DNA of 12,959 nucleotides from Deltaproteobacteria bacterium (GTDB taxonomy: Bacteria > Myxococcota > XYA12-FULL-58-9 > JAUUZB01): assembly GCA_030590185.1 (NCBI GenBank), contig JAUUZB010000019.1, positions 1-12,959 of the forward strand. Direction: 5' to 3'. Positions 860 through 12,627 of the stretch are shown here, one piece after another. The notes beneath the pieces were generated by a model, which searched no databases, was not told where the DNA came from, and worked only from the letters and a program-made list of their open reading frames with translations. Position 1 is the stretch's first letter. Every line of letters starts with the position of its first letter. The translations under genes and the position numbers were made by a program.

Positions 860-3800
860 CTAGAAGTAGTCCAATCGCACGGCGACCCAGTCGAGGGAAT
901 AATCCCGCCACTGAGTGTTGGCGGTCGGTCTCAGGCGCACTTGGAAATTCGCGTCCGTCAGCTCGCCCTCCACGAAGTTGTGGCCCCAACCCTCCCCGGT
1001 GCCCACGACGTACGACACCTCTGTCGGGGTCAACAAAGGCGTCACCTTGGGGAACGTCCACGAGGCGCCGCCGTCCCACGACAGCGAGATGCACAAGAAG
1101 GGGTCCGAGTCGATGGCGTCCGCCCAGACATCCGTGCGGACCTCGATTTCACCAATGGTCGATCCCGCCGGCAGGCCGAAGCCGAAGTTGTAGAACCCGT
1201 GGAGGTCGTGGCCGTCGCCGTCGCACGCAGCGACGGTGGCCCACCCGTCATTGACGTCTTGGGCGAAGCCGCCACCGTCCGTCATGGCGTCGTCTGGCTG
1301 GATCTCAAACCCGTCGTTGTTGCCTCCTTGCAGCGCGCTGTTGGCCGTGGGGCTCACCCAACCGGTGTTCTGCCACACCGGCGTCGGACCGAAGTTGACG
1401 TCGACCGGAATCCAATCGAGGAAGAAATCCCTCGGGTTGGCGTCCGAGTTGCTCGTGACCCGGACCCGGAAGGTGGCGTCCGAGAGCTCGTCGGATATCC
1501 AGGTGCGCCCCCAGTTGTCGTAGGCGCCGCCGAAGAGCACCGTGTGCTCGGGGAGCCCCTCTTGGTTGTCGATATTCTGCGCGGTCCAGGTGGCACCGCC
1601 GTCCCCGGACAGCTCCACCGCCATGGAGTTGGCGCCGTTCACCGACTCGAGCCGCCAGTCCATGCGAACCGTGATCCCCTGCACGTCGCAGCCCGCGGGG
1701 ACGCCGAAGCCATAGTCATAGAATTGGTGGCGATCCCCCATGCCGTTGATGTTGCCGGCCTCGTCGACGCCATCGGTATACGCCTCGGTGGGCGTGACCT
1801 CGAAGCCATCGCCGTCGCCGCCGGTGTCGGCCGCGTTGTTGGTCTGGTTGCGCCAGCCAGTGCTCGCCGGAGGACACGCCGAGCAACCGCTGTCGGCGCC
1901 GTCGATATCGCCGTCGCAGTCGTTGTCCCAGGTGTCGGAGCAGTTACCCCCGGTCTCACTGATCGTCGGCGCGCAGAGATCACCGCAAGGCCCCGCATCG
2001 TCGCAGTCCTCCTCGACGCAGACCCCGTCGACGTCGGCGTCCGTACAGGGGGCCGTATAGCAGTAGGCGTTGCCATCATCGCAGTCGCTGCAGTCGCTGA
2101 CGTACCCTCCGGGCGCGACGCAGCGAGAGGCGCTCGCGCCGCTGTCGCCGTAGGTGTCGCCGTCGGTATCCGCGCAGTACGTCACGCAGGCCCCGGTCAC
2201 CACGCCGTCGCACGTCGGTCCCGTTACCGGATCGTCGTCGCAATCCTCCTCGACGCAGATACTGTCGCCGTCGGCGTCCGTGCAGCCGGCGACATAACAA
2301 AAAGTGTTGCCGTCGTCGCAATCGCTGCAATCGCTGACAAACCCCCCGGGCGCCATGCAGCGTGACGCGGTCGTGCCGCCGTCGCCGAAGGTGTCGCTGT
2401 CCGTATCGGCACAAAAAGTCGTGCAGGCACCGCTGACCACGCCATCGCAGGTGGGGCCGGTTACCGGATCGTCGTCGCAGTCCTCCTCGACGCAGATCCC
2501 ATCGAGGTCACCATCGGTGCACCCGGCGGCGTAACAATAGATATTGGAGTCGTTGCAGTCGCTGTTGTTGCCCACGTAGCCGACCGGCGGCGCGCAGCGG
2601 CTGGTGCTCGACGCGAGGTTGCCGAAGCCGTCACCGTCCGTGTCGGCAAAGAAGGTCGCGCAGCTGCCGACCACCACGCCGTCACAGGTAGGGCCGGTGG
2701 CCGGGTCGTCGTCGCAGTCCGCTTCGGCGCACACCCCGTCCGCATCGGCGTCGATGCAGCCGGCAGCGTAACACCACTCGTTGCCATCGTCGCAGTCGCT
2801 GCAGTCGAACACGTAGCCCCCGGGCGCGACGCATCTCGAGGCGGTAGCGCCGGCGTCCCCCCGGGTGTCGATATCCGTATCGGCGCAGAAGCTCGTGCAG
2901 GCACCTACCCCCACCCCGTCGCAGCCCCCGCCGGTGACCGGATCATCATCGCAATCCTGCTCCACGCAGGTGCTGTCGCCGTCCGCGTCGGTGCACGGCG
3001 CGGCGTAACAGTAGGCGTTGCCATCGTCGCAGTCGCTGCAGTCCAACACGTGACCCACGGGCGCCACGCAGCGCGAGACGCTGCTGCCGTTGTCGCCGAA
3101 GGTGTCGCTGTCGCCGTCGGGGCAAAAGACCGAGCAGGCCCCCCCCACCACGCCGTCGCAGCTCGGACCGGTGACCGCGTCGTCGTCGCAGTCCTCCTCG
3201 ACGCATACGCCGTCGCTGTCGGCGTCGAGGCAGGGCGTGGTGTAACAATATGGGTTGCCGTCGTTGCAATCGGTGCAGTCGCTGACGAAACCGACGGGCG
3301 CCACGCAACGCGACGCGCTCGTGCCGATGGTGCCGTAGGTGTCGCTGTCCGTGTCGGCACAGAAGGTCGCGCAGACACCCGTGACCACGCCGTCACAGGT
3401 CGGGCCCGTGATCGGGTCATCGTCGCAATCCTGCTCCACGCACACCCCGTCGCTGTCGGCGTCTACGCAGCCCGCCGCAAAGCAATAGCTGTTGGTGTCG
3501 TCGCAATCACTATTATCCGGCACGTAGCCCACCGGCTGCGCACAATCCGTCAGCGTGTCGCCGGCGTCGCCATGGGTGTCGCCGTCGACATCGCGGTACC
3601 AGGAGATCGCGCTGTCTTCGTCGACCTCCGTGTCGCAGTCGTTGTCGGCGAGATCACAGCCGTCGCTGCCGGCCCGGCCCGGGTTGCACAGGGAGCCGTG
3701 GAGATCGTTGCAGTTGGGGTCGGCCCCATCGACGTCCGCGCAATCGGTGGCATCGGCGACGTAGCCCGCCGGCTGGACGCAGACCACCTGAAAGACGGCG

Positions 3801-6247
3801 ACGTTGCCATAGCCGTCACCATCCGCGTCCTCATACCAGGTGACATCGGAGTCCTCGTCGGTCAGGCCGTCGCAGTCATTGTTGGCGTTGTCACAGACGT
3901 CCGCCCCATCCAGACCCGGGTTGCACAGGGAGCCGTCCTGGTTGCCGCAGGCCGGGTCGCTCACCGGGGTGTCGGCGCAATCGGTGTCGTCCGCCACGTA
4001 CCCGCCGGGCGCCGTGCACGCCGCCTGGGGCGCGCCCGGGTTGCCGTAGGTGTCATTGTCGTCGTCCGCGTACCAGAGCAGATCCGGATCCTCATCGGTC
4101 AGGCCGTCACAGTCATTGTTGGCGCCGTCGCAACCGTCTGAGCCGTCGAAGCCCGGGTTGCACTGGTTGCCATCGAGACCGCCACAGGCGGGATCCGCCA
4201 CCGGTGCATCCGCGCAGTCGGTGTCGTCCGCGACATGACCGGCGGGTTGCCCGCAGACCACCAGGGAGACCGCGGCGTTTCCATAGCCGTCGGCGTCCGC
4301 ATCCTCGTACCAGGTGAGGTTGGAGTCTTCATCGGTCGCGCCGTCGCAGTCGTTGTTGGCGCCGTCACAGATGTCCGAGCCGGCGAGGCCGGGGTTGCAT
4401 TGCGCGCCGGGGAGACCGCCGCAATTCGGATCCGACAGCGGTACATCCGCGCAGTCGGTGTCATCCGCCACGTAGCCCGCGGGTTGACTCCAGGCATCCT
4501 GGGTCGCGCCCGCGTCACCATAGCCGTCGCCGTCCGCGTCGGCGTACCAGGTGGTGCCGCCATCTTCATCTATCAACGTGTCGCAGTCATTGTCCGCGCC
4601 GTCACACAGGTCTGCGCCGGCGAGGCCCGGATGACACGACGCACCGTTCAAACCGTTACAATTCGGATCCGGCCCGTTGGTGTCGGCGCAGTCGGAGCCG
4701 TCCGCGACGTGGCCCGCCGGTGGCGTGCAGGCGGAGACCATTGCCCCCGGGTTGCCGTAACCGTCGCCGTCCGCGTCAGCGTACCAGGCCAGGTCCGGAT
4801 CCTCGTCGAGGGAGAGATCGCAATCGTTGTTGGCGCCGTCGCAGACGTCCATTCCGGCCAAGCCCGGATGACAACTCGAGCCGGGCAGGCCGTTGCAGCT
4901 CGGGTCCGGGCCGTCGATCTCGGCGCAGTCGCCGCTGTTCGCGACGTGCCCCGCCGGTTGCGCGCAGACCACCTGGCCCGCGGCTGGGTCGCCAAAACCG
5001 TCCCCATCCACGTCGGCGTACCAGGTCAGGTCCGAGTCCTCATCGATGTCGGCGTCGCAGTCGTTGTTGATGCCATCGCAGATGTCGGAGCCGGCGAGGC
5101 CGGGGTGGCATTGGTCACCGGGCAGGCCGCCGCAATTCGGATCGCTCCCGGGCGTGTCAGCGCAATCCGTGCCGTTGCTCACGGTCCCCGCGGGTTGCGC
5201 GCACCCGCCCTGGGCCGCGGCCGGATCGCCGTAACCATCCCCGTCGGCGTCTAGGTACCAGGAGGCCTGGGGATCTTCGTCGACATCGCCGTCACAATCG
5301 TTGTCCGTACCGTCGCAGATGTCGGCGCCGGCGAGGCCCGGGTTGCAGTCCACGCCGCAGTCGGTCGGATTGTCGTTGCAGTCATCCCCACCGTTGCAGG
5401 CCGCGTCGACATAGCCATCGCCGTCGCTGTCCTTATCCGCCGCGCCATAGCTGCACCGGCCGGCCTCGCAGGAGTAGACGCTGTAGCACGGATTGATGCA
5501 CTCGGAGGCGTCGGTGCAGATCGACACCGTCAGCACCTCGACACGGGTCGTGGCCGGCACCAACCCGCTCAACCCGTGCATGGTCCAACGCACCTCGAGG
5601 GTGAGATCCACCAGCTCGGCGATCGGCGTGCCGCGGGTCTCCTGCACGCTGGTCGCCGTCGACACGGTCTCGCCCGCTGCCACCTCTGCCGGCAGCGTGA
5701 GCGGCCCGGCCACGGTCAGGATCCCGGCCGGGGCAGTGGTTACGTCGCCCTCGACCGCGACGGTCGCGGTCGAGACGGAGCGCGACTGCACTTCTAACGT
5801 GAGCGACGTCGTCTCACCGAGGGCGATGTCCGGCGTCATGGATAGGGTCGCGGTCACCGGCGCCACCACCTCGAAGATGTCCACCGCCGACACCGACAGA
5901 TCTTCGGAGAGCACCACCGTCAGGCCGTGGGTACCCACCTCGAGCGTGTCAGGCACCACCGCGGTGATCCGCGTCGGGTCGTGGACGACGACATCTTCGA
6001 GCGCCACTGCACCCAGGGTCACCGAGATCTCGCCGACCTCGGCGACGCTGCCGTCGAGATTGACTTGGATCGGGACGATGAAACCCTCCCCCGTGATTTC
6101 GACCTCGGCCCGCTCCCCGACCACGGCGACCGCGGGATCGATCCCGGCGATAGCGATATCGCCGTCAGCGGCAGGCGAAGTGGAGCAGCGGCAGCCAGGC
6201 AAGAGCGCAGCCGCGACGAGTAGCCCGATGACGACAGATCTGGACAT
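860..6247 (-). CDS. Giant cysteine-rich MopE-repeat lipoprotein (1795 aa)
   Basis: An exported protein. Residues 1 to 19 form a lipoprotein signal (basic start, VVIGLLVAAA core, LPGC lipobox, lipidated Cys19). Residues about 31 to 127 resemble an IPT/TIG Ig-like domain and 128 to 243 look like another beta domain. Residues 242 to 270 are a small cysteine knot, and 271 to 329 a short MopE-like cap. Residues 330 to 1435 are fourteen 79-residue units rich in DxDGDxYG, DCxD and NNDCDG motifs, like the putative metal-binding (MopE) family, whose Asp clusters are expected to bind Ca2+ or another cation. A cap (1436 to 1458) and two homologous beta-rich domains (about 1463 to 1619 and 1624 to 1795) follow. 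The start at 6247 is preferred over the longer frame from 6316 because it begins the signal peptide and has GGGAGAGGGG 11 bases upstream. A surface stalk or adhesin-like role is inference; no enzyme motif is seen. Confidence 0.9.
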   Translation of the reverse strand: MSRSVVIGLLVAAALLPGCRCSTSPAADGDIAIAGIDPAVAVVGERAEVEITGEGFIVPIQVNLDGSVAEVGEISVTLGAVALEDVVVHDPTRITAVVPDTLEVGTHGLTVVLSEDLSVSAVDIFEVVAPVTATLSMTPDIALGETTSLTLEVQSRSVSTATVAVEGDVTTAPAGILTVAGPLTLPAEVAAGETVSTATSVQETRGTPIAELVDLTLEVRWTMHGLSGLVPATTRVEVLTVSICTDASECINPCYSVYSCEAGRCSYGAADKDSDGDGYVDAACNGGDDCNDNPTDCGVDCNPGLAGADICDGTDNDCDGDVDEDPQASWYLDADGDGYGDPAAAQGGCAQPAGTVSNGTDCADTPGSDPNCGGLPGDQCHPGLAGSDICDGINNDCDADIDEDSDLTWYADVDGDGFGDPAAGQVVCAQPAGHVANSGDCAEIDGPDPSCNGLPGSSCHPGLAGMDVCDGANNDCDLSLDEDPDLAWYADADGDGYGNPGAMVSACTPPAGHVADGSDCADTNGPDPNCNGLNGASCHPGLAGADLCDGADNDCDTLIDEDGGTTWYADADGDGYGDAGATQDAWSQPAGYVADDTDCADVPLSDPNCGGLPGAQCNPGLAGSDICDGANNDCDGATDEDSNLTWYEDADADGYGNAAVSLVVCGQPAGHVADDTDCADAPVADPACGGLDGNQCNPGFDGSDGCDGANNDCDGLTDEDPDLLWYADDDNDTYGNPGAPQAACTAPGGYVADDTDCADTPVSDPACGNQDGSLCNPGLDGADVCDNANNDCDGLTDEDSDVTWYEDADGDGYGNVAVFQVVCVQPAGYVADATDCADVDGADPNCNDLHGSLCNPGRAGSDGCDLADNDCDTEVDEDSAISWYRDVDGDTHGDAGDTLTDCAQPVGYVPDNSDCDDTNSYCFAAGCVDADSDGVCVEQDCDDDPITGPTCDGVVTGVCATFCADTDSDTYGTIGTSASRCVAPVGFVSDCTDCNDGNPYCYTTPCLDADSDGVCVEEDCDDDAVTGPSCDGVVGGACSVFCPDGDSDTFGDNGSSVSRCVAPVGHVLDCSDCDDGNAYCYAAPCTDADGDSTCVEQDCDDDPVTGGGCDGVGVGACTSFCADTDIDTRGDAGATASRCVAPGGYVFDCSDCDDGNEWCYAAGCIDADADGVCAEADCDDDPATGPTCDGVVVGSCATFFADTDGDGFGNLASSTSRCAPPVGYVGNNSDCNDSNIYCYAAGCTDGDLDGICVEEDCDDDPVTGPTCDGVVSGACTTFCADTDSDTFGDGGTTASRCMAPGGFVSDCSDCDDGNTFCYVAGCTDADGDSICVEEDCDDDPVTGPTCDGVVTGACVTYCADTDGDTYGDSGASASRCVAPGGYVSDCSDCDDGNAYCYTAPCTDADVDGVCVEEDCDDAGPCGDLCAPTISETGGNCSDTWDNDCDGDIDGADSGCSACPPASTGWRNQTNNAADTGGDGDGFEVTPTEAYTDGVDEAGNINGMGDRHQFYDYGFGVPAGCDVQGITVRMDWRLESVNGANSMAVELSGDGGATWTAQNIDNQEGLPEHTVLFGGAYDNWGRTWISDELSDATFRVRVTSNSDANPRDFFLDWIPVDVNFGPTPVWQNTGWVSPTANSALQGGNNDGFEIQPDDAMTDGGGFAQDVNDGWATVAACDGDGHDLHGFYNFGFGLPAGSTIGEIEVRTDVWADAIDSDPFLCISLSWDGGASWTFPKVTPLLTPTEVSYVVGTGEGWGHNFVEGELTDANFQVRLRPTANTQWRDYSLDWVAVRLDYF
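863..1861 (-). other. Two tandem homologous C-terminal beta-rich domains
   Basis: Residues about 1463 to 1619 and 1624 to 1795 of the giant lipoprotein are two copies of one domain. Both contain GFE[VI]xP, A-x-TDG, a Y-x-[YF]GFG[VL]PAG segment, I-x-VR-x-D, DGGA[TS]WT, EL[ST]DA-x-F-x-VR and a closing D[FY]-x-LDW motif. The alternating pattern and the 'mathematically smooth' Gly/Trp-rich turns suggest a jelly-roll-like sandwich. The second copy contains extra cysteines (VAACDGDG and FLCIS). I do not recognise a named family. Being at the free end of a lipid-anchored array, they are the likely contact or binding heads (inference). Confidence 0.6.
1943..3364 (-). repeat. B-type 79-residue repeat block (units 9 to 14)
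   Basis: Six in-frame units of exactly 237 bases: 3364-3128, 3127-2891, 2890-2654, 2653-2417, 2416-2180 and 2179-1943. The typical unit begins FCADTDSDTYG, then SRC-x-x-P-x-G-[YFH]-V, DCSDCDDGN, YCY-x-x-x-C, D-x-D-x-D-x-x-C, DCDDDP-x-TG and CDGV. Typical cysteines lie at unit positions 2, 20, 30, 33, 40, 45, 54, 59, 69 and 77. Unit 12 lacks Cys2 and Cys30 together. The end of unit 14 departs from the pattern (Cys65 and Cys69, none at 77) before a MopE-like cap. Confidence 0.93.
3365..3601 (-). repeat. Hybrid unit 8 joining A-type and B-type repeats
   Basis: This 79-residue unit starts as type A (WYRDVDGDTHG, then C-AQP-x-GYV) and finishes as type B (NSYCFAAGC, VDADSDGVC, DCDDDPITG, CDGV). 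It has eight cysteines at 20, 33, 40, 45, 54, 59, 69 and 77. The A-specific 43, 51, 61 and 68 are gone, and the B-specific pair 2 and 30 is not yet present. Its length equals all its neighbours, so the family switch causes no register shift. Confidence 0.9.
3602..5260 (-). repeat. A-type (MopE-like) 79-residue repeat block (units 1 to 7)
   Basis: Seven in-frame units of exactly 237 bases: 5260-5024, 5023-4787, 4786-4550, 4549-4313, 4312-4076, 4075-3839 and 3838-3602. The unit consensus is WY-x-D-x-DGDGYG, C-x-x-P-x-G-[YH]-V-A, DCAD, DP-x-C, C-[HN]-PG-x-x-G-x-D, CD-x-x-[ND]-NDCD and DED. Cysteines lie at unit positions 20, 33, 43, 51, 61 and 68. Unit 4 has Trp (TGG, 4492 to 4490) in place of Cys20. 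The units are diverged at both protein and DNA level, so this is an old array rather than a fresh duplication. Confidence 0.95.
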
Positions 6248-6258
6248 CCAGCCGGCTG

Positions 6259-6268
6259 CCCCTCTCCC
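6259..6268 (-). promoter_or_regulatory. Ribosome-binding site deciding the giant lipoprotein start
   Basis: GGGAGAGGGG on the minus strand lies 11 bases before the ATG at 6247. It supports this start, which also places the lipobox Cys at residue 19, over the in-frame ATG at 6316. Confidence 0.55.
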
Positions 6269-6391
6269 GGTTGGGGTGGACGCCCATAATGTAGCAGTCC
6301 AGCCGGCAGAGCGCACACCGCAAAAAATCGTACAACTGCGCAGGTCGGCCGGCGCCAGACGGGCTCTCGAGAGTTCCTGTACAGATACGCC

Positions 6392-7390
6392 CTACTTCCG
6401 CCCCGCCTCGGCGATCGCTTCGAGGGCCTCCTCGGCGATCTCGACCACGTCGGGGTTCGCGTCGCCCAACAATCCCCGCAGGGGCTCCACCGCCCCGGGC
6501 AGCGCGATCTTGCCCAATAGATCCGCCGTGTCCCCGCGCAAGGCCGCGTCGGCTCCGTCGGTCCCAAGGATCTCCACTAGGGCGGGCAGCAACTCGTCCA
6601 GGGCTCCCACCTCGAGCTCGAGGGCCGCCTCCGCCGCCATCATCAAGCCCATTCGTTCCGACAGGGCGCTGCCCCGCCAGCCGGCGGCGAAGGCCTCTCG
6701 ACCCGAGCCATCCACCAGGCGTTGCGCCGCGTCCGCGAATCGTCCCACCGTGATCAACGACGCGAACACCTCCGCCTCGTAGGCCGGAGTCCCCCGCGCC
6801 AGCAGTTTCTCCGCCAGCTCCGAGCCGCGCCAGGCCCCGGTGATCGACAGCCCCCCATCCACTACGGTCAGCGGCACCGACCGCGCGCCGAAGGACTTGG
6901 CGAGCTCCGGAAAAAACTGCGCGTCGATCACCGTCGTGCGGATCGCGGGGCTCAACAGGCTCAAGCCGGTGGCGGCGCGCACGGTGTGCGGGCAGTTGGG
7001 ACAGGCGGCGGCGATGAAGATGATCACCTCGATCGGGTCAGCGAGCTCGGCAACCTGCTTCTGCCACGCCTCGGCCGCCGGTGTCTCTGTCCCTATTTGA
7101 CACACGGCCTCGAGGAAGGGCGCCGCCTCTGGTCCCTCCGGTGCCGCTAGGTAACGGATCACGGGTCGGCCCGCGTCATGGAGCACCAGCGCTGGTCGGG
7201 CCGGCAGCTCGGCGTCCTCCTGCTCCCGCCGCACGACCACCCTGCCGCCGCCCACCTCCTCGAGCTGGGCCGCGAGCCCCACGAGCTGGTCGTTCAAGGG
7301 ATGATCCGCGGCGACGTGCAGACTCAACTCCACCGGGTTCTGCTCGCTCCGCTCGGCGAGGGCGGCTTCGATCTCGGATGTGTCGAGCAC
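6392..7390 (-). CDS. Double thioredoxin-fold protein with HEAT-like C-terminus
   Basis: A 332-residue protein with no signal peptide, so probably cytoplasmic. Residues about 18 to 98 look like a thioredoxin fold without a CxxC motif. Residues about 117 to 198 are a second fold with CPNC at 130 to 133 and a cis-proline loop SVP (Pro173). The pairing of an inactive and an active fold, and the segment around CPNCPHTV and LSLLSPAI, resemble the N-terminal domain of AhpF and archaeal protein disulfide oxidoreductases, which exchange dithiol and disulfide. Residues about 240 to 328 are Ala/Leu-rich helices, the last part with a HEAT-like pattern (LLGKIALPGAVEPLRGLLGD). There is no FAD or NAD domain, so it is not an AhpF. 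The GTG start at 7390 is chosen because AGGAGG lies 6 bases upstream. It begins one base past the stop of the glycosyltransferase gene, so the two are probably translationally coupled. Confidence 0.82.
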   Translation of the reverse strand: MLDTSEIEAALAERSEQNPVELSLHVAADHPLNDQLVGLAAQLEEVGGGRVVVRREQEDAELPARPALVLHDAGRPVIRYLAAPEGPEAAPFLEAVCQIGTETPAAEAWQKQVAELADPIEVIIFIAAACPNCPHTVRAATGLSLLSPAIRTTVIDAQFFPELAKSFGARSVPLTVVDGGLSITGAWRGSELAEKLLARGTPAYEAEVFASLITVGRFADAAQRLVDGSGREAFAAGWRGSALSERMGLMMAAEAALELEVGALDELLPALVEILGTDGADAALRGDTADLLGKIALPGAVEPLRGLLGDANPDVVEIAEEALEAIAEAGRK

Positions 7391-7391
7391 C

Positions 7392-8552
7392 TCACTCCTC
7401 CTGTTCGGCGCGTCGTAACGCCTCCTGATAGACGCGGTCGATCTGCTCCCCAACCGTCTCCCGGCTGTACAGCCCGCGGGCGCGGGTGCTCAGGCGGTCG
7501 CGATCGAAGCTCCCGCGTCGATCGAGCATGTCGCTGAGGGCCGCGGCGAGCGCTCCTGGGTCGCTGGGCGTGCACAGGATGCCGTTGTCGGGCCCGATCA
7601 CCTCTGGGATCCCACCGACCCGGGTGCCGACCACCGGCAGTCCGCAGCAACCGGCCTCGAGCGCCACGCAGGGCAGGTTCTCCCACAAACTGGGGAGCAC
7701 CAGAAAATCAGCGCCCTGCATGCGCTGCGCGACCTCGGGCTTGGATAGGGCGCCGACGAAACGCACCCGCCCGGCGAGTCCGAGCTCCTGCGCTAGCTCT
7801 GTGTAGATCTGTCGCTGCGGACCGTCCCCGACCAACTCGAGCTCCCAATCGCGGCGTTGTTTCTGCAACCGCGCGGCGGCGCGCAGCAGGCCTTCGACAC
7901 CCTTGACCGGCACCATGCCGCCCACGAACAGGATCCGGGCCTTACGGCCCCGCGGCGCCGTGGTTGGCGGTCGAAAGAGCTCGGTGTCGACCGCGTTCGG
8001 CACGATTTGGTAGCGCGGGAAGAGATCGTAGCGGTTGATGCCATCGAGCAACGCCGCGCTCACCGGCATCACCACCGACGCGCCACCGTAGCCGGTCTTC
8101 GCCTCGAGCTGTTGGCGCGGGGTCAGCAACCGGCGCGGAAAATCGGAGGCGTGCTCGGTGAGCACCATCGGCACGCCAGCGAGCTTGGCGATCACGGCGC
8201 CCGGCACCGCCGCCTTGTAGATGTTCGCGTGGACCAACTGCGGCACGAAACCGCGGCGCAGCAAGCCCTCGTGGGCGCGAGCCGCGGCGTGCAGATACAT
8301 CAACCAGTGGGTCATCGGGATCGGCGAGGCGCCGTAAAACAGGTCGAAGGTGCGCAGCCCAGCGCAGATGGCCGGATCGCGCTGCTCCTCGAGCCGCCAG
8401 GTCACGCTGGGCAGCAGCCGCGGACCGTGCATCACGACCACGTCGTGGTGCAGCGCCACCGCCCGGGCGTGCTCGCGCACGAAGATCGATTGCACCGGCT
8501 CCTCGGCGGTGGGGTAGGCGGCGGTGATGAATAGGATGCGCAGGCGCGACAC
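7392..8552 (-). CDS. GT4-family glycosyltransferase
   Basis: A 386-residue GT-B fold enzyme predicted to move a sugar from a nucleotide donor to a glycan or lipid acceptor at the inner face of the membrane. The N-terminal half has the ILFITAAYP start, VHANIYKAA and LTEHASDF acceptor-side segments. The C-terminal half has VPNAVDT (184 to 190), ILFVGGMVPVKG (207 to 218), VGDGP (241 to 245) and LWENLPCVALE with the E-x7-E pair Glu291 and Glu299, followed by GLPVV and GGIPEVI. This is the standard family 4 pattern. The start codon is GTG at 8552; only a weak AGG lies upstream. It is the first gene of the minus-strand block, immediately followed by the thioredoxin-fold gene, and it diverges from another GT4 gene. 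The sugar and acceptor cannot be told from sequence. Confidence 0.92.
   Translation of the reverse strand: MSRLRILFITAAYPTAEEPVQSIFVREHARAVALHHDVVVMHGPRLLPSVTWRLEEQRDPAICAGLRTFDLFYGASPIPMTHWLMYLHAAARAHEGLLRRGFVPQLVHANIYKAAVPGAVIAKLAGVPMVLTEHASDFPRRLLTPRQQLEAKTGYGGASVVMPVSAALLDGINRYDLFPRYQIVPNAVDTELFRPPTTAPRGRKARILFVGGMVPVKGVEGLLRAAARLQKQRRDWELELVGDGPQRQIYTELAQELGLAGRVRFVGALSKPEVAQRMQGADFLVLPSLWENLPCVALEAGCCGLPVVGTRVGGIPEVIGPDNGILCTPSDPGALAAALSDMLDRRGSFDRDRLSTRARGLYSRETVGEQIDRVYQEALRRAEQEE
7395..7402 (-). promoter_or_regulatory. Strong ribosome-binding site at the stop/start junction
   Basis: AGGAGGAG on the minus strand lies inside the last codons of the glycosyltransferase gene, 4 bases before the GTG at 7390. 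It fixes the start of the thioredoxin-fold gene and argues against the in-frame ATG at 7453. Confidence 0.8.
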
Positions 8553-8646: not shown

Positions 8647-9945
8647 ATGGCCCCCCTCCGCATCGGCATGGTCCTCGCGGATCGCGCGTCCCTGCCGGAC
8701 ATCCGCGTCGACAAAGAAGCGCGCGCCCTGATCGACGCCGGCCATCGCGTCGCGTTACTCGCCGGCGGTGATGAGAGCCTGGATTCGGGCGCCGCGGCGC
8801 CGGTCGGTGTCGAGGTCTACCGTTGCGACGCACCGATCCTCTCCCTCGCCGGTCTCGGGCCGCGACCCAAGCCCCGCCTGCTGCTCGCCGGCCTGCGCGG
8901 CGCCCGGCGCGATCCACGTTTTTGGGCCCGCGCCACCGGCGTCGAGGGGCTGCGTTTTTACGCCGACGCCATCTCGGCGCCCTGGAGCGACGCCATCCGG
9001 CGCTTCCTACGCGTCTTCCGGCCCCAGGTCCTGCACGTCCACGATCTGCTCGCCCTGCCCACGGCGCTGCGGGTGGCCCGTGGCGTGGGGTTGCCGGTGG
9101 TGGCCGATCTCCACGAAAACTGGCCGGCCTATCTCGAAGCGGTGGCGGCAGGCCTAACCGGCCTCGAGCGTCGCGCCTTTGTCACGGTCTGGGATCCGGC
9201 GCGCTGGCGTAGGATCGAGGCGGAGCTGTTGCCGCTGTGCGCCGCCGTCATCGTGGTGGTGCCCGAGGCGGCCGCGCGCCTGCGCGCCTACCCGTTGACC
9301 CGCGACGCAGTAGTCCTGGTCTCGAACACCGAGCCGCCGCTGGTCTCCGAGCCCACCCCGACCCCCGGCTATGAACATCGCTGGGTGGCGCTCTACGCCG
9401 GTAGCGTGGACCACGCCCGCGGGCTCGAGACGATCCTACACGCCACCCCCGAGGTCGCCGCCGTTGAGCCGCGCTTCTTGCTCCTCGTGGTCGGCGCCAA
9501 CCCCGAGTGGCGCGAGCGGCTCACCCGCCTAGCGCAACGGTTGGGCGTCGAGCGTCACGTCGAGATCCTGGGTTGGCGACCGCGACCGGAGATCCCCGGC
9601 TTCATCGCCGCGAGCCAGGCCTGCCTGGTTCCCCACCGGAACCTCGAGCACACCAACACCACGGTGCCCCACAAGCTGTTCCAATACCTCGCCCACGGCA
9701 AACCGGTGGTGGCCAGCAGCTGCCCGCCCCTCGCCCGCATTCTGAAGGAGACCGGCGCCGGGGTCGTGTTCAACGCCGATAGCGCCCCGGACGCCGCCCG
9801 CGCCCTCATTCAACTCATCGAGACGCCTAGCCTAGCCAAGTCCATGGGGAACCGCGGCCGAGACGCCGTGGACGATCCCTGGGGATGGCGAAAGGACGCC
9901 GATCGCCTGTGCGATCTCTATGGACGCATCCGGTCCAGTATCTAA
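8647..9945 (+). CDS. GT4-family glycosyltransferase, second and divergent
   Basis: A 432-residue GT-B fold enzyme. The N-terminal half has the glycine loop before DIRVDKEARALIDAGHRV, the VLHVHDLLALPTA segment (128 to 140) and DLHENWP (154 to 160). The C-terminal half has LYAGSVDHARGLE (249 to 261), a VVGANP strand (281 to 286) and TTVPHKLFQYLAHGKPVVAS (338 to 357), the family 4 nucleotide-sugar site. The glutamate often found in KLFEY is Gln346, a variation that also occurs in the family. It is only distantly similar to the minus-strand GT4, so they are not recent duplicates. ATG 8647 is the only sensible start, though no good ribosome-binding site precedes it. The 94 bases between the two glycosyltransferase starts must hold both promoters; I see no convincing boxes there. 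The substrate is unknown. Confidence 0.9.
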   Translation: MAPLRIGMVLADRASLPDIRVDKEARALIDAGHRVALLAGGDESLDSGAAAPVGVEVYRCDAPILSLAGLGPRPKPRLLLAGLRGARRDPRFWARATGVEGLRFYADAISAPWSDAIRRFLRVFRPQVLHVHDLLALPTALRVARGVGLPVVADLHENWPAYLEAVAAGLTGLERRAFVTVWDPARWRRIEAELLPLCAAVIVVVPEAAARLRAYPLTRDAVVLVSNTEPPLVSEPTPTPGYEHRWVALYAGSVDHARGLETILHATPEVAAVEPRFLLLVVGANPEWRERLTRLAQRLGVERHVEILGWRPRPEIPGFIAASQACLVPHRNLEHTNTTVPHKLFQYLAHGKPVVASSCPPLARILKETGAGVVFNADSAPDAARALIQLIETPSLAKSMGNRGRDAVDDPWGWRKDADRLCDLYGRIRSSI

Positions 9946-10045: not shown

Positions 10046-10086
10046 CCGATAGTATGATTACGATCAAGGCCACCCTGGACGCCGCC

Positions 10087-12627
10087 ATGTCTAAGAGCAA
10101 CCCTCTCCTCCTCCTAGCCACCCTGGCCATCGCCGCCTGTGGTGCAGCGCCCGCCGACGTCACGCCCTACGAGCGTTCGGCCGGTATCACCGTGGAGGAA
10201 GCGTCCTACGAGCTCGTGACCCTGGCCAACCAAACCGAGACCGCCCTCGGCGAGAGCTTCTCCGTGCGCTGCCTGATGTTGCGCGACGGCGACCTGTACG
10301 TGGTCGACACCGGCATCAGCGTCGACACCCACCCGGCGGTCGAGAGCCTCGTGGTCGATGGCGACCAAGTCGAGATCACGCCGGCCGTGGCCGGCAGCCT
10401 GCACGTGGCCTGTCGCACCGCCGATGGCGAGGCGGTCGATCCGATCGGCGTCGAGATCGAGGTGAGCGCCTATCTCCCCGCCCAGTGGACGGTCGAGCCC
10501 CCCGAACAAGACTGCTTTGGCCAGACCGATCGATTGGCGATCAACTACCAAGTCGAGGACGCCGTGGGCAACCTGGTCAACGGCACCGAGATCGACGTCG
10601 ACATCCAACCGAGCACCGGCGTGCTCGGCACCACCGGCACCGGCTTCCGCTTCACCGTGGACGGCACGTACCAGGTGACCGTCAGCCTGCTCGGCGAGGT
10701 CGATCCCCAGAACACCATCGAGCCGGTACAGTTCAACATTCGCGTCGACGCCACCCCGCCGGTCTTCGCGATCACCAGTCCCATCCGCGGCCAGACCCTG
10801 CAGGTCGGCACCATGGCCGACCAAGCGATCACCGTCACCGGCTCGGTCCAGGACGAGGCTTCCTCGATCACCGCCCTCGTCATCGACGGCGTCGAGCAGC
10901 CGGTCAGCGGCGACGGTCTCGAGGAGACCTTCAACACCACCCACGACAGCCGCTGGGGCCTGTCGGTGGTCTCCGGTCACGCCGAGGACGCCTGTGGCAA
11001 CGTCGCCTACGTGACCGTGCCCTTCCTGCGCAGCCCGAGCTACTACGCGGCCGCGACCTCCGCCAATCCCGCCGCCGTCGTGCCGAGCGCCCTGGCCGCC
11101 CAGGTCAGCCAGTCCCTGGTCGACGACGGCGACCGCAGCGACCTCGACGATCTGGCCAGCGTCGGTCAATACATCCTCTCCGACTACGCTTTCAACGGCA
11201 TGTTGGTCCCCGGCGCGGAGCTGAGCTCGAATGAGCCCCGCGACGACTGCACCGGCTTTCCCGGCCCGACCTTCGCGAGCACCGGTCACCTGGCCCTGCG
11301 CCACCCGAACGCCGGACGCCTGGTCAACATCGACCCCTTCGTCGACAATCTCTCCTTCGTCGGCGGCGGCGTCGACTTCGCCGTACGCGTCGACAATTTC
11401 GACTTCCCGCTGCAGGTCGACGTCGAGGTCATTCAATGCGCGCTCGGTGCGCCGACCATCGATGAGTTCACGGTCGACGCCTGGGTGGGGTTCGACCACC
11501 TCGCGGCCGCCGGAGTGGTGGGCGCCAACCTCGTCGATGGCCGGGTCGCCGCCAGCGTCGAGAGCATCGACTTCGTCGTCGACGGTCTCTACATCGACAT
11601 GGATTGTGGGATGATGGACTGGGCCTGCGACACCATCGTGGATCTGATCATCGGCGCCGCCGAAGATATGGTGGAGCGTGAGGTCGAGAGCGCGATCGCC
11701 GAGATGGTCCCGCCCCTGCTCACCGACATCCTCGCTGACGTCTCGATCGACACCACCGTGGCGCTGCCCGCCCCGATCAACACGCAGCTCGGCGTCGCCG
11801 CTCACCTCTCGAACCTCGCCTTCTGCGGCCCCTCGGTTGGGCTACCCATGCCGAGCGTCTGCCACGCCGACAACACCGTCCCGGGCTCGACCCTGCTCGG
11901 CCTGAGCAGCCAAGTTTATCCCCTCAGCCGCGGCCCTGGGATCCCCGCCATCGCCCGCGGCGCCATCCGCGCCAGCGTCGGCCCAACCCCCACCTTCGAC
12001 TCCGCCGCCACCTCCTTTGGCGTGGCGGTCAACGAAGACGCCCTGAACCAAGCCCTGTGGGCGGTTTGGTACGGCGGTGCCCTCGACATCCCGGACGTGG
12101 CCGCCGCGCTGCCGCTCGTCCCGGAGGGGGTCGACATCTCGGTGTACGCCGGGCTGCCCCCGGTCCTGATGCCGGGCCGCAACGGCAACCTGTTCGAGAT
12201 CGGGCTCGGCGACCTCCAGGTCGAAGGCAGCGTCGACATCAACGCCCTGCTCGGCAACCCGGACGCGCCGCCGCAGTTCGTGTCGCTCAGCATGACCTTG
12301 AGCCTGGTGGCCGGCGCCGCGGTCAGCGCTGATCACGATGTCAACGCGGTACGCATCAGCCTCGATCCGGAGCCGCAGATCTTCGTCGAGATCCACCAGA
12401 TCGACGACTACACCTACGGACAGCTCCTCGGTGAACGGCTCGCCGAGACACTCTCCGAGGCGCTCACCGGCCTGCTCGGTGAGGCGCTCAGCGTGGTCCA
12501 GCTCCCCTCCTTCGACCTGAGCGGCACCGCCGGCCTCCCGAGTGGCACCGTCTGGGGCCTCACCGACGCCGCGGCCACCCAGGACACTGGCTGGGTCGCG
12601 CTCAGCGGCTCGCTAGGAACTCTGTAA
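10087..12627 (+). CDS. Lipoprotein with Ig-like and BPI-like (TULIP) domains
   Basis: An 846-residue exported protein. The signal peptide has Lys3, a LLLLATLAI core and lipobox IAAC, with lipidated Cys18. Residues about 30 to 222 look like two beta domains, and 223 to 313 an Ig-like domain (TPPVFAITSP start, ITVTGSVQD). Residues about 395 to 620 and 640 to 846 follow the order of the two barrels of BPI/LBP proteins: strands, a long amphipathic helix (about 515 to 550, with DTIVDLIIG and VESAIAEMVPPLL), then FGVAVNEDALNQALWAVW (644 to 661) with YGGALDI, GLPPVL, and a final LPS-x-x-L and WVALSGSL. Such barrels bind or carry lipids. This assignment is at fold level only. ATG 10087 is preferred over ATG 10054 because it begins the signal peptide; neither has a strong ribosome-binding site. 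TATGAT at 10053 to 10058 could be a -10 box, but no -35 is clear. Confidence 0.78.
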   Translation: MSKSNPLLLLATLAIAACGAAPADVTPYERSAGITVEEASYELVTLANQTETALGESFSVRCLMLRDGDLYVVDTGISVDTHPAVESLVVDGDQVEITPAVAGSLHVACRTADGEAVDPIGVEIEVSAYLPAQWTVEPPEQDCFGQTDRLAINYQVEDAVGNLVNGTEIDVDIQPSTGVLGTTGTGFRFTVDGTYQVTVSLLGEVDPQNTIEPVQFNIRVDATPPVFAITSPIRGQTLQVGTMADQAITVTGSVQDEASSITALVIDGVEQPVSGDGLEETFNTTHDSRWGLSVVSGHAEDACGNVAYVTVPFLRSPSYYAAATSANPAAVVPSALAAQVSQSLVDDGDRSDLDDLASVGQYILSDYAFNGMLVPGAELSSNEPRDDCTGFPGPTFASTGHLALRHPNAGRLVNIDPFVDNLSFVGGGVDFAVRVDNFDFPLQVDVEVIQCALGAPTIDEFTVDAWVGFDHLAAAGVVGANLVDGRVAASVESIDFVVDGLYIDMDCGMMDWACDTIVDLIIGAAEDMVEREVESAIAEMVPPLLTDILADVSIDTTVALPAPINTQLGVAAHLSNLAFCGPSVGLPMPSVCHADNTVPGSTLLGLSSQVYPLSRGPGIPAIARGAIRASVGPTPTFDSAATSFGVAVNEDALNQALWAVWYGGALDIPDVAAALPLVPEGVDISVYAGLPPVLMPGRNGNLFEIGLGDLQVEGSVDINALLGNPDAPPQFVSLSMTLSLVAGAAVSADHDVNAVRISLDPEPQIFVEIHQIDDYTYGQLLGERLAETLSEALTGLLGEALSVVQLPSFDLSGTAGLPSGTVWGLTDAAATQDTGWVALSGSLGTL

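Follow-up and report, generated by a model that had tools for sequence, protein, structure and literature searches.

The window, a stretch of 12,959 nucleotides from contig JAUUZB010000019.1 of a Deltaproteobacteria bacterium (assembly GCA_030590185.1), carries a minus-strand gene whose product contains a tandem array with a strict period of 79 residues. Judged by homology over the array, the product is a kind of MopE-related "putative metal-binding motif" protein (PF11617); what is new here is a variant of the known MopE-type repeats with 79-residue units. The account considered probable is that of an exported, probably lipid-anchored stalk protein made of MopE-type modules, the lengths of which would have been inherited by duplication while indels were purged from the module cores. 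Relatives occur with many repeat lengths, which speaks against a fixed rise per unit and leaves the array explicable without one; the comparison suggests that a constant length, where an array has one, is inherited and is no requirement of the family.

Gene architecture and periodicity of the array

The open frame on the minus strand covers 860-6316 (1818 aa) and extends 5' to a GTG at 6316; the ATG listed in Table 1 was chosen as the probable start because of the signal peptide. This peptide, MSRSVVIGLLVAAALLPGC, stands at the beginning of the protein and is taken to be a lipoprotein-type signal by the lipobox rule, applied by eye. The middle of the protein is an acidic, Cys-rich tandem array, preceded by an N-terminal region and followed by a C-terminal domain in two copies, which are identical at 60 of 157 aligned residues in a local alignment; the C-terminal part has no match in Pfam at E <= 0.1, and Rfam and tRNA scans of the window returned no match.

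Table 1. Parts of the array gene, in window positions.
Feature	Positions	Strand	Basis or remark
Repeat-protein gene, stop codon included	860..6247	-	probable ATG start at 6247
Lipoprotein-like signal peptide MSRSVVIGLLVAAALLPGC	6191..6247	-	read off translation
Unit 0, A-type tail in register, without A head	5261..5356	-	A consensus match
A units 1-7 (H-X-M), each of 79 residues	3602..5260	-	
Hybrid unit 8, A-type head and B-type tail (H-L-X)	3365..3601	-	
B units 9-13 (H-L-X), each of 79 residues	2180..3364	-	
B unit 14, good match through residue 61 only	1997..2179	-	B consensus
C-terminal domain, first copy	1391..1864	-	local alignment of both copies
C-terminal domain, second copy	866..1369	-	local alignment of both copies

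Fourteen heads lie within residues 353-1458 (the first start at 353 and 432, the last at 1380), and the head-to-head spacing is 79 residues in 13 of 13 cases. Identity at a lag of 79 residues is 0.60, compared to a maximum of 0.13 in 300 shuffles (lags 79, 158 and 237). The C.PG motif occurs eight times, also at a spacing of 79 residues, when the tail of unit 0 is included; unit 0 (residues 321-352) precedes unit 1 and stands behind a different head. The initial annotation had counted fourteen 79-residue units, and its spacing stands in full; the length of unit 14 is undefined, since it matches the B consensus well only up to residue 61 and is not followed by another head, which leaves 13 complete units. 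The division into seven A units, one hybrid and six B units was borne out, with WY-type units at 1-7, the hybrid at 8 and FC-type units at 9-14. The heads are 79 residues apart across both types as had been described, and the W-Y of the A type (units 1-8) falls on the F-C of the B type with two exceptions, FF in unit 12 and YC in unit 14.

Absence of indels, also proposed earlier, is true within each type: same-type neighbours among units 1-13 (hybrid counted as B) align gap-free in 11 of 11 pairs at 56-68% identity. It does not extend to pair 7/8 at the change of type, where the alignment requires 24 gap positions. TRF reports 3% indels in 3802-5143; the in-frame protein alignment shows none. 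The hybrid receives the B length automatically, as a junction anywhere inside the shared head would give it, and is therefore not an independent observation of 79.

The 1106 residues of the array comprise 219 Asp, 24 Glu, no Lys, 9 Arg and 107 Cys. Each of the fourteen units contains the D.D.D loop of the head as well as a DC.D/E element. In unit 4 (4313-4549, minus strand) a Trp replaces the Cys20 found in the other 13 heads, leaving that unit with an odd number of cysteines. Cys2 and Cys30 occur together in five of the 14 window heads (units 9, 10, 11, 13 and 14), and neither is present in the remaining nine. The combination of Cys2 with Cys30 is absent from all 3328 homologous heads that have exactly this length, and one of them has Cys2 alone; a looser count flagged two homologous heads, the second cysteine of which sits elsewhere. 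The pattern is suggestive of a Cys2-Cys30 disulfide specific to B heads, within this window only.

Family membership and module composition of the units

At E <= 0.001 the array is matched by 3054 proteins, and the 119 others of the best 120 carry a precomputed PF11617 assignment; the named matches among those listed include Bacteroidota and Myxococcota, with single ones from Thermodesulfobacteriota and Patescibacteria. The A array itself scores 15.0 bits (E 0.03) against PF11617, below the curated cut-off of 27 bits, and the B array has no match to the profile, which according to PMC6189053 spans just a small region of MopE/CorA. When A units 4-7 are aligned with 12 homologous fragments, the D, P and C columns are invariant or nearly so. 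The motif residues of PF11617 (DC.D ... P ... C ... C ... D) are present in the A units around an insert of at most 13 residues, and are lacking in the B units. Each of the 13 members of alignment A2 has a PF11617 match at E <= 10, with values of 0.056 for the window member and 3.1e-46 for the best.

The window array shares with MopE-related PF11617 arrays the head DxDxDGxG...C..P.G.V....DC.D, the lengths of the head segments and a large number of units; the A units also contain the canonical MopE tail C-DG-x-x-NDCD-x-x-x-DE. The usual unit of these arrays has 66-71 residues, in contrast to 79 in the window, and in the window A units 13 further residues, a Cys pair among them, separate DC.D from PG. 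A regular expression for this insert matches seven times in the window and once among 201 homologues, at an unrelated-looking site in P0085. B-type units with the Cys-pair motif of module X (defined below) occur in two of the 201 homologues, the metagenomic proteins P0121 and P0127, which align to 97% and 95% of the B query with 44% and 39% identity. A genome scan for B-type units gave 24 pattern matches, of which one was confirmed, a weak relative from Saprospiraceae (L001) without such an array; among plasmids, two records from Persicobacter came up with identities of about 30%. The literature search found no paper naming a MopE-related protein or Myxococcota repeats with a putative metal-binding motif, and none of the papers listed is about these repeats in its title and the start of its abstract.

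The initial annotation held that A and B share little beyond the first 35 positions. This is correct in register, where the tails are 8.0% identical compared to a column-permuted mean of 9.7% and 67% of permutations reach the observed value; homology of the tails in register was accordingly rejected. Out of register a second shared element appears: A residues 36-51 match B residues 62-77 at 27.8%, compared to 10.3% for permuted columns, a value reached by 0.6% of 5000 permutations and the best of 64 offsets (the next being 19.3%). In both stretches cysteines stand 10, then 8 residues past a DC cysteine. A and B units thus have two modules in common, a head of 35 aa (H) and a Cys-pair module of 16-18 aa (X); the canonical MopE tail of 28 aa (M) and a second short acidic loop of 26 aa (L) complete the set. 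An A unit is H-X-M (35+16+28) and a B unit H-L-X (35+26+18), so that 79 is reached by two routes. An A unit is 13 residues longer than the canonical 66-residue unit with which it was aligned, and a B unit is longer than the 74/75-residue units of P0121 and P0127 by four or five. P0121 and P0127 share the H-L-X order with the window and differ from it in a unit of 74/75 residues and a shorter X; P0121, the best-scoring B-type relative, also has H-X units of 48/49 residues mixed with those of 74/75 within one array, as is expected if modules are gained and lost.

Because 79 is the sum of two different sets of modules, the shared value amounts to one coincidence, not fourteen, and the simplest explanation for the agreement of A and B in length is that their module sizes happen to add up alike. 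Two arrays drawn at random from the 201 homologues have the same modal length with a probability of 0.196; 79 being rare, the agreement is somewhat surprising for a coincidence and to that extent speaks against the account considered probable. It could be proposed that the two module orders are tuned to one length, holding metal sites or Cys bridges at constant axial spacing along a rigid rod; this is judged quite improbable, and if true it would describe a length-matched composite rod built from interchangeable modules.

Unit length among relatives and the origin of its uniformity

Unit lengths were compared in 202 arrays, the window and 201 homologues, the latter being the distinct rows of the best 120 of 3054, 1607 and 4432 matches, a sample in which long, window-like arrays are over-represented. 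Spacings were counted from a profile scan of heads, and uniformity was counted over spacings of 40-100 residues. The profile yields 3847 head-to-head spacings in the 202 arrays; only 14 of these are of 79 residues, and all but one of the 14 belong to the window array. Modal unit lengths range from 40 to 92 residues and are mostly 66-71 (64 arrays at 66, 45 at 69, 38 at 68 and 17 at 71). Freely varying unit lengths in homologues had been named at the outset as the observation that speaks against structural selection of unit length; 193 of the 202 arrays hold 2 to 9 lengths, leaving nine that are fully uniform, the window among them. Of the 185 arrays that contain six or more neighbour pairs of 60-80 residues, 93 have unequal lengths in half or more of these pairs. 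The window array is nonetheless more regular than is typical of its family: equal length is seen in 1186 of the 2225 homologous neighbour pairs (53%) with an identity of 50-75%, a rate at which 11 equal pairs out of 11 are by themselves unlikely (about 0.001).

The part of the unit that varies was located by parsing 1,159 canonical units from 144 homologues with one regular expression; none of these units is from the window. Five internal segments are found at one length in 91, 94, 96, 99 and 98% of the units, a constancy favoured by the parser, which dropped units outside its allowed ranges; the linker between the final cysteine block and the head that follows is mostly 10 to 17 residues long and its commonest value accounts for 31%. 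The parser ranges weaken the core-constancy half of this contrast and leave the linker-variation half intact. The length of the core is constrained and the distance from unit to unit much less so; indels seem to be excluded from the compact core, and no common rise per unit is required. The earlier claim that unit length is under structural selection is thereby retained for the inside of the unit, and the solenoid or rod of fixed rise to which it was attached is unsupported. This comparison sets a nearly length-locked core apart from a free linker, and the construction of units from exchangeable modules provides a concrete definition of the folding unit; it is also a caution that uniform repeat length is no proof of a solenoid.

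Uniformity by recent duplication alone, with no time for indels to arise, is extremely improbable. Tandem arrays do expand by duplication, and 142 homologous neighbour pairs are at least 85% identical, but neighbours in the window array are just 56-68% identical; adjacent same-type units have dS of 0.68-1.43 and dN of 0.21-0.39 (dN below dS), and four-fold sites differ at 46% between A units and 43% between B units, where 56% is expected of unrelated sequences. Synonymous sites are close to saturated, so the units are old copies with their length kept rather than fresh duplicates, and recent duplication was rejected for the window array because it is contradicted by this divergence. The same divergence bears on homogenisation, in which recombination in the shared 35-residue heads would keep the register and remove length variants without any structural need. 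The hybrid unit, which changes from A to B just past the shared head, is in keeping with such exchange, as are three-unit patterns (71, 69, 71) that recur in some homologous arrays as if lengths had been copied in blocks; frequent conversion would however have prevented the high divergence of the units, and in the divergence matrix adjacent units are barely closer to one another than units of the same type that lie far apart, which makes homogenisation unlikely as the main cause.

A rod of fixed rise, in which a solenoid-like superhelix selects the unit length and A and B have converged on 79, draws on the 13 equal spacings over two unit types at high synonymous divergence. Long equal runs are also seen elsewhere: at least 10 equal spacings occur in 50 of the 202 arrays, some at a mean neighbour identity of 46-53%, and at least 13 in 23, the window being included in both counts. 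The rarity of fully uniform arrays and the mixing of lengths in about half of the scorable ones, together with a variable part that is linker and the mixed units of P0121, stand against this reading, which is considered improbable. Inheritance of length by duplication is therefore preferred, with each type having received one length as the array grew through old duplications and with purifying selection removing indels from the compact core; this order of events is the one that would account for the array. In P0010, P0047, P0056 and P0075 a pattern of three unit lengths, for example 71-69-71 or 68-71-69, returns along the array, and lengths in these homologues seem to have been copied with blocks of units.

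Structure comparison, proposed function and neighbouring genes

AlphaFold2 models were obtained for A units 4-7 (13 alignment rows; pLDDT 40, pTM 0.18) and for units 8-11 (5 alignment rows; pLDDT 64, pTM 0.26), the latter with averages over ten residues that are about 69-86 in the heads and dip under 50 around unit positions 36-45; both appear too poor to count for or against a constant stacking geometry. Foldseek against the PDB and VIA-align found no fold match for the poor model of units 8-11, and single-sequence PDB searches with the two halves of the array matched no chain. A PDB search with the A profile returned three rows, of which MopE of Methylococcus capsulatus (2VOV, E 0.014) is the sole plausible relative; the B profile returned three weak polcalcin rows alone, at E 0.86 and above. 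MopE shares with the window protein the PF11617 type of motif, of which it has a single copy close to the N-terminus, and the match is confined to one 33-residue stretch. This stretch falls inside the N-terminal 46 residues, which PMC3423442 describes as absent from the crystal form; no solved structure of a unit was thus found in the PDB searches, yet motifs of the MopE type are present in thousands of large proteins from bacteria. As regards a C-terminal copper-site domain like that of 2VOV, the direct PDB comparison covered the array halves and the Pfam scan the C-terminal part, with no match in either.

The DxDxD head loop and the DC.D/E element of each unit most likely bind Ca2+, and the cysteine pairs most likely form short-range disulfides, predicted as C43-C51 in A units and C69-C77 in B units. 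With Ca2+ bound and the disulfides closed, the highly charged chain would become a stiff stalk, resistant to proteases, on which the C-terminal domains would be held away from the cell; given the lipoprotein-type start and the duplicated C-terminal domain, a surface stalk stiffened by Ca2+ and braced by disulfides is the most likely function. Thrombospondin type 3 repeats are chains of acidic loops with disulfides, arranged around Ca2+. Their relation to the window array is one of resemblance only, there being no PDB sequence match and, for a poor model, no Foldseek match. PMC3123361 describes Dx[DN]xDG as a Ca2+ motif known in many folds and mentions a binuclear form of it in thrombospondin type 3 repeats, and PMC3423442 reports that calcium protected MopE against proteolysis.

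The ORF upstream on the same strand (6392-7453, minus) contains a thioredoxin-like domain (Thioredoxin_3) with a CPNC motif and a HEAT_2 match; it also matches a protein disulfide oxidoreductase model below the cut-off of that model, and no signal peptide is evident by eye. A redox link is possible between this ORF and the adjoining gene with its cysteine-rich array. An 857-aa lipoprotein-like ORF at 10054-12627 (plus) has no Pfam match at E <= 0.001. Two divergent genes near the array gene, at 7392-8552 (minus) and 8647-9945 (plus), contain family 4 glycosyltransferase domains.
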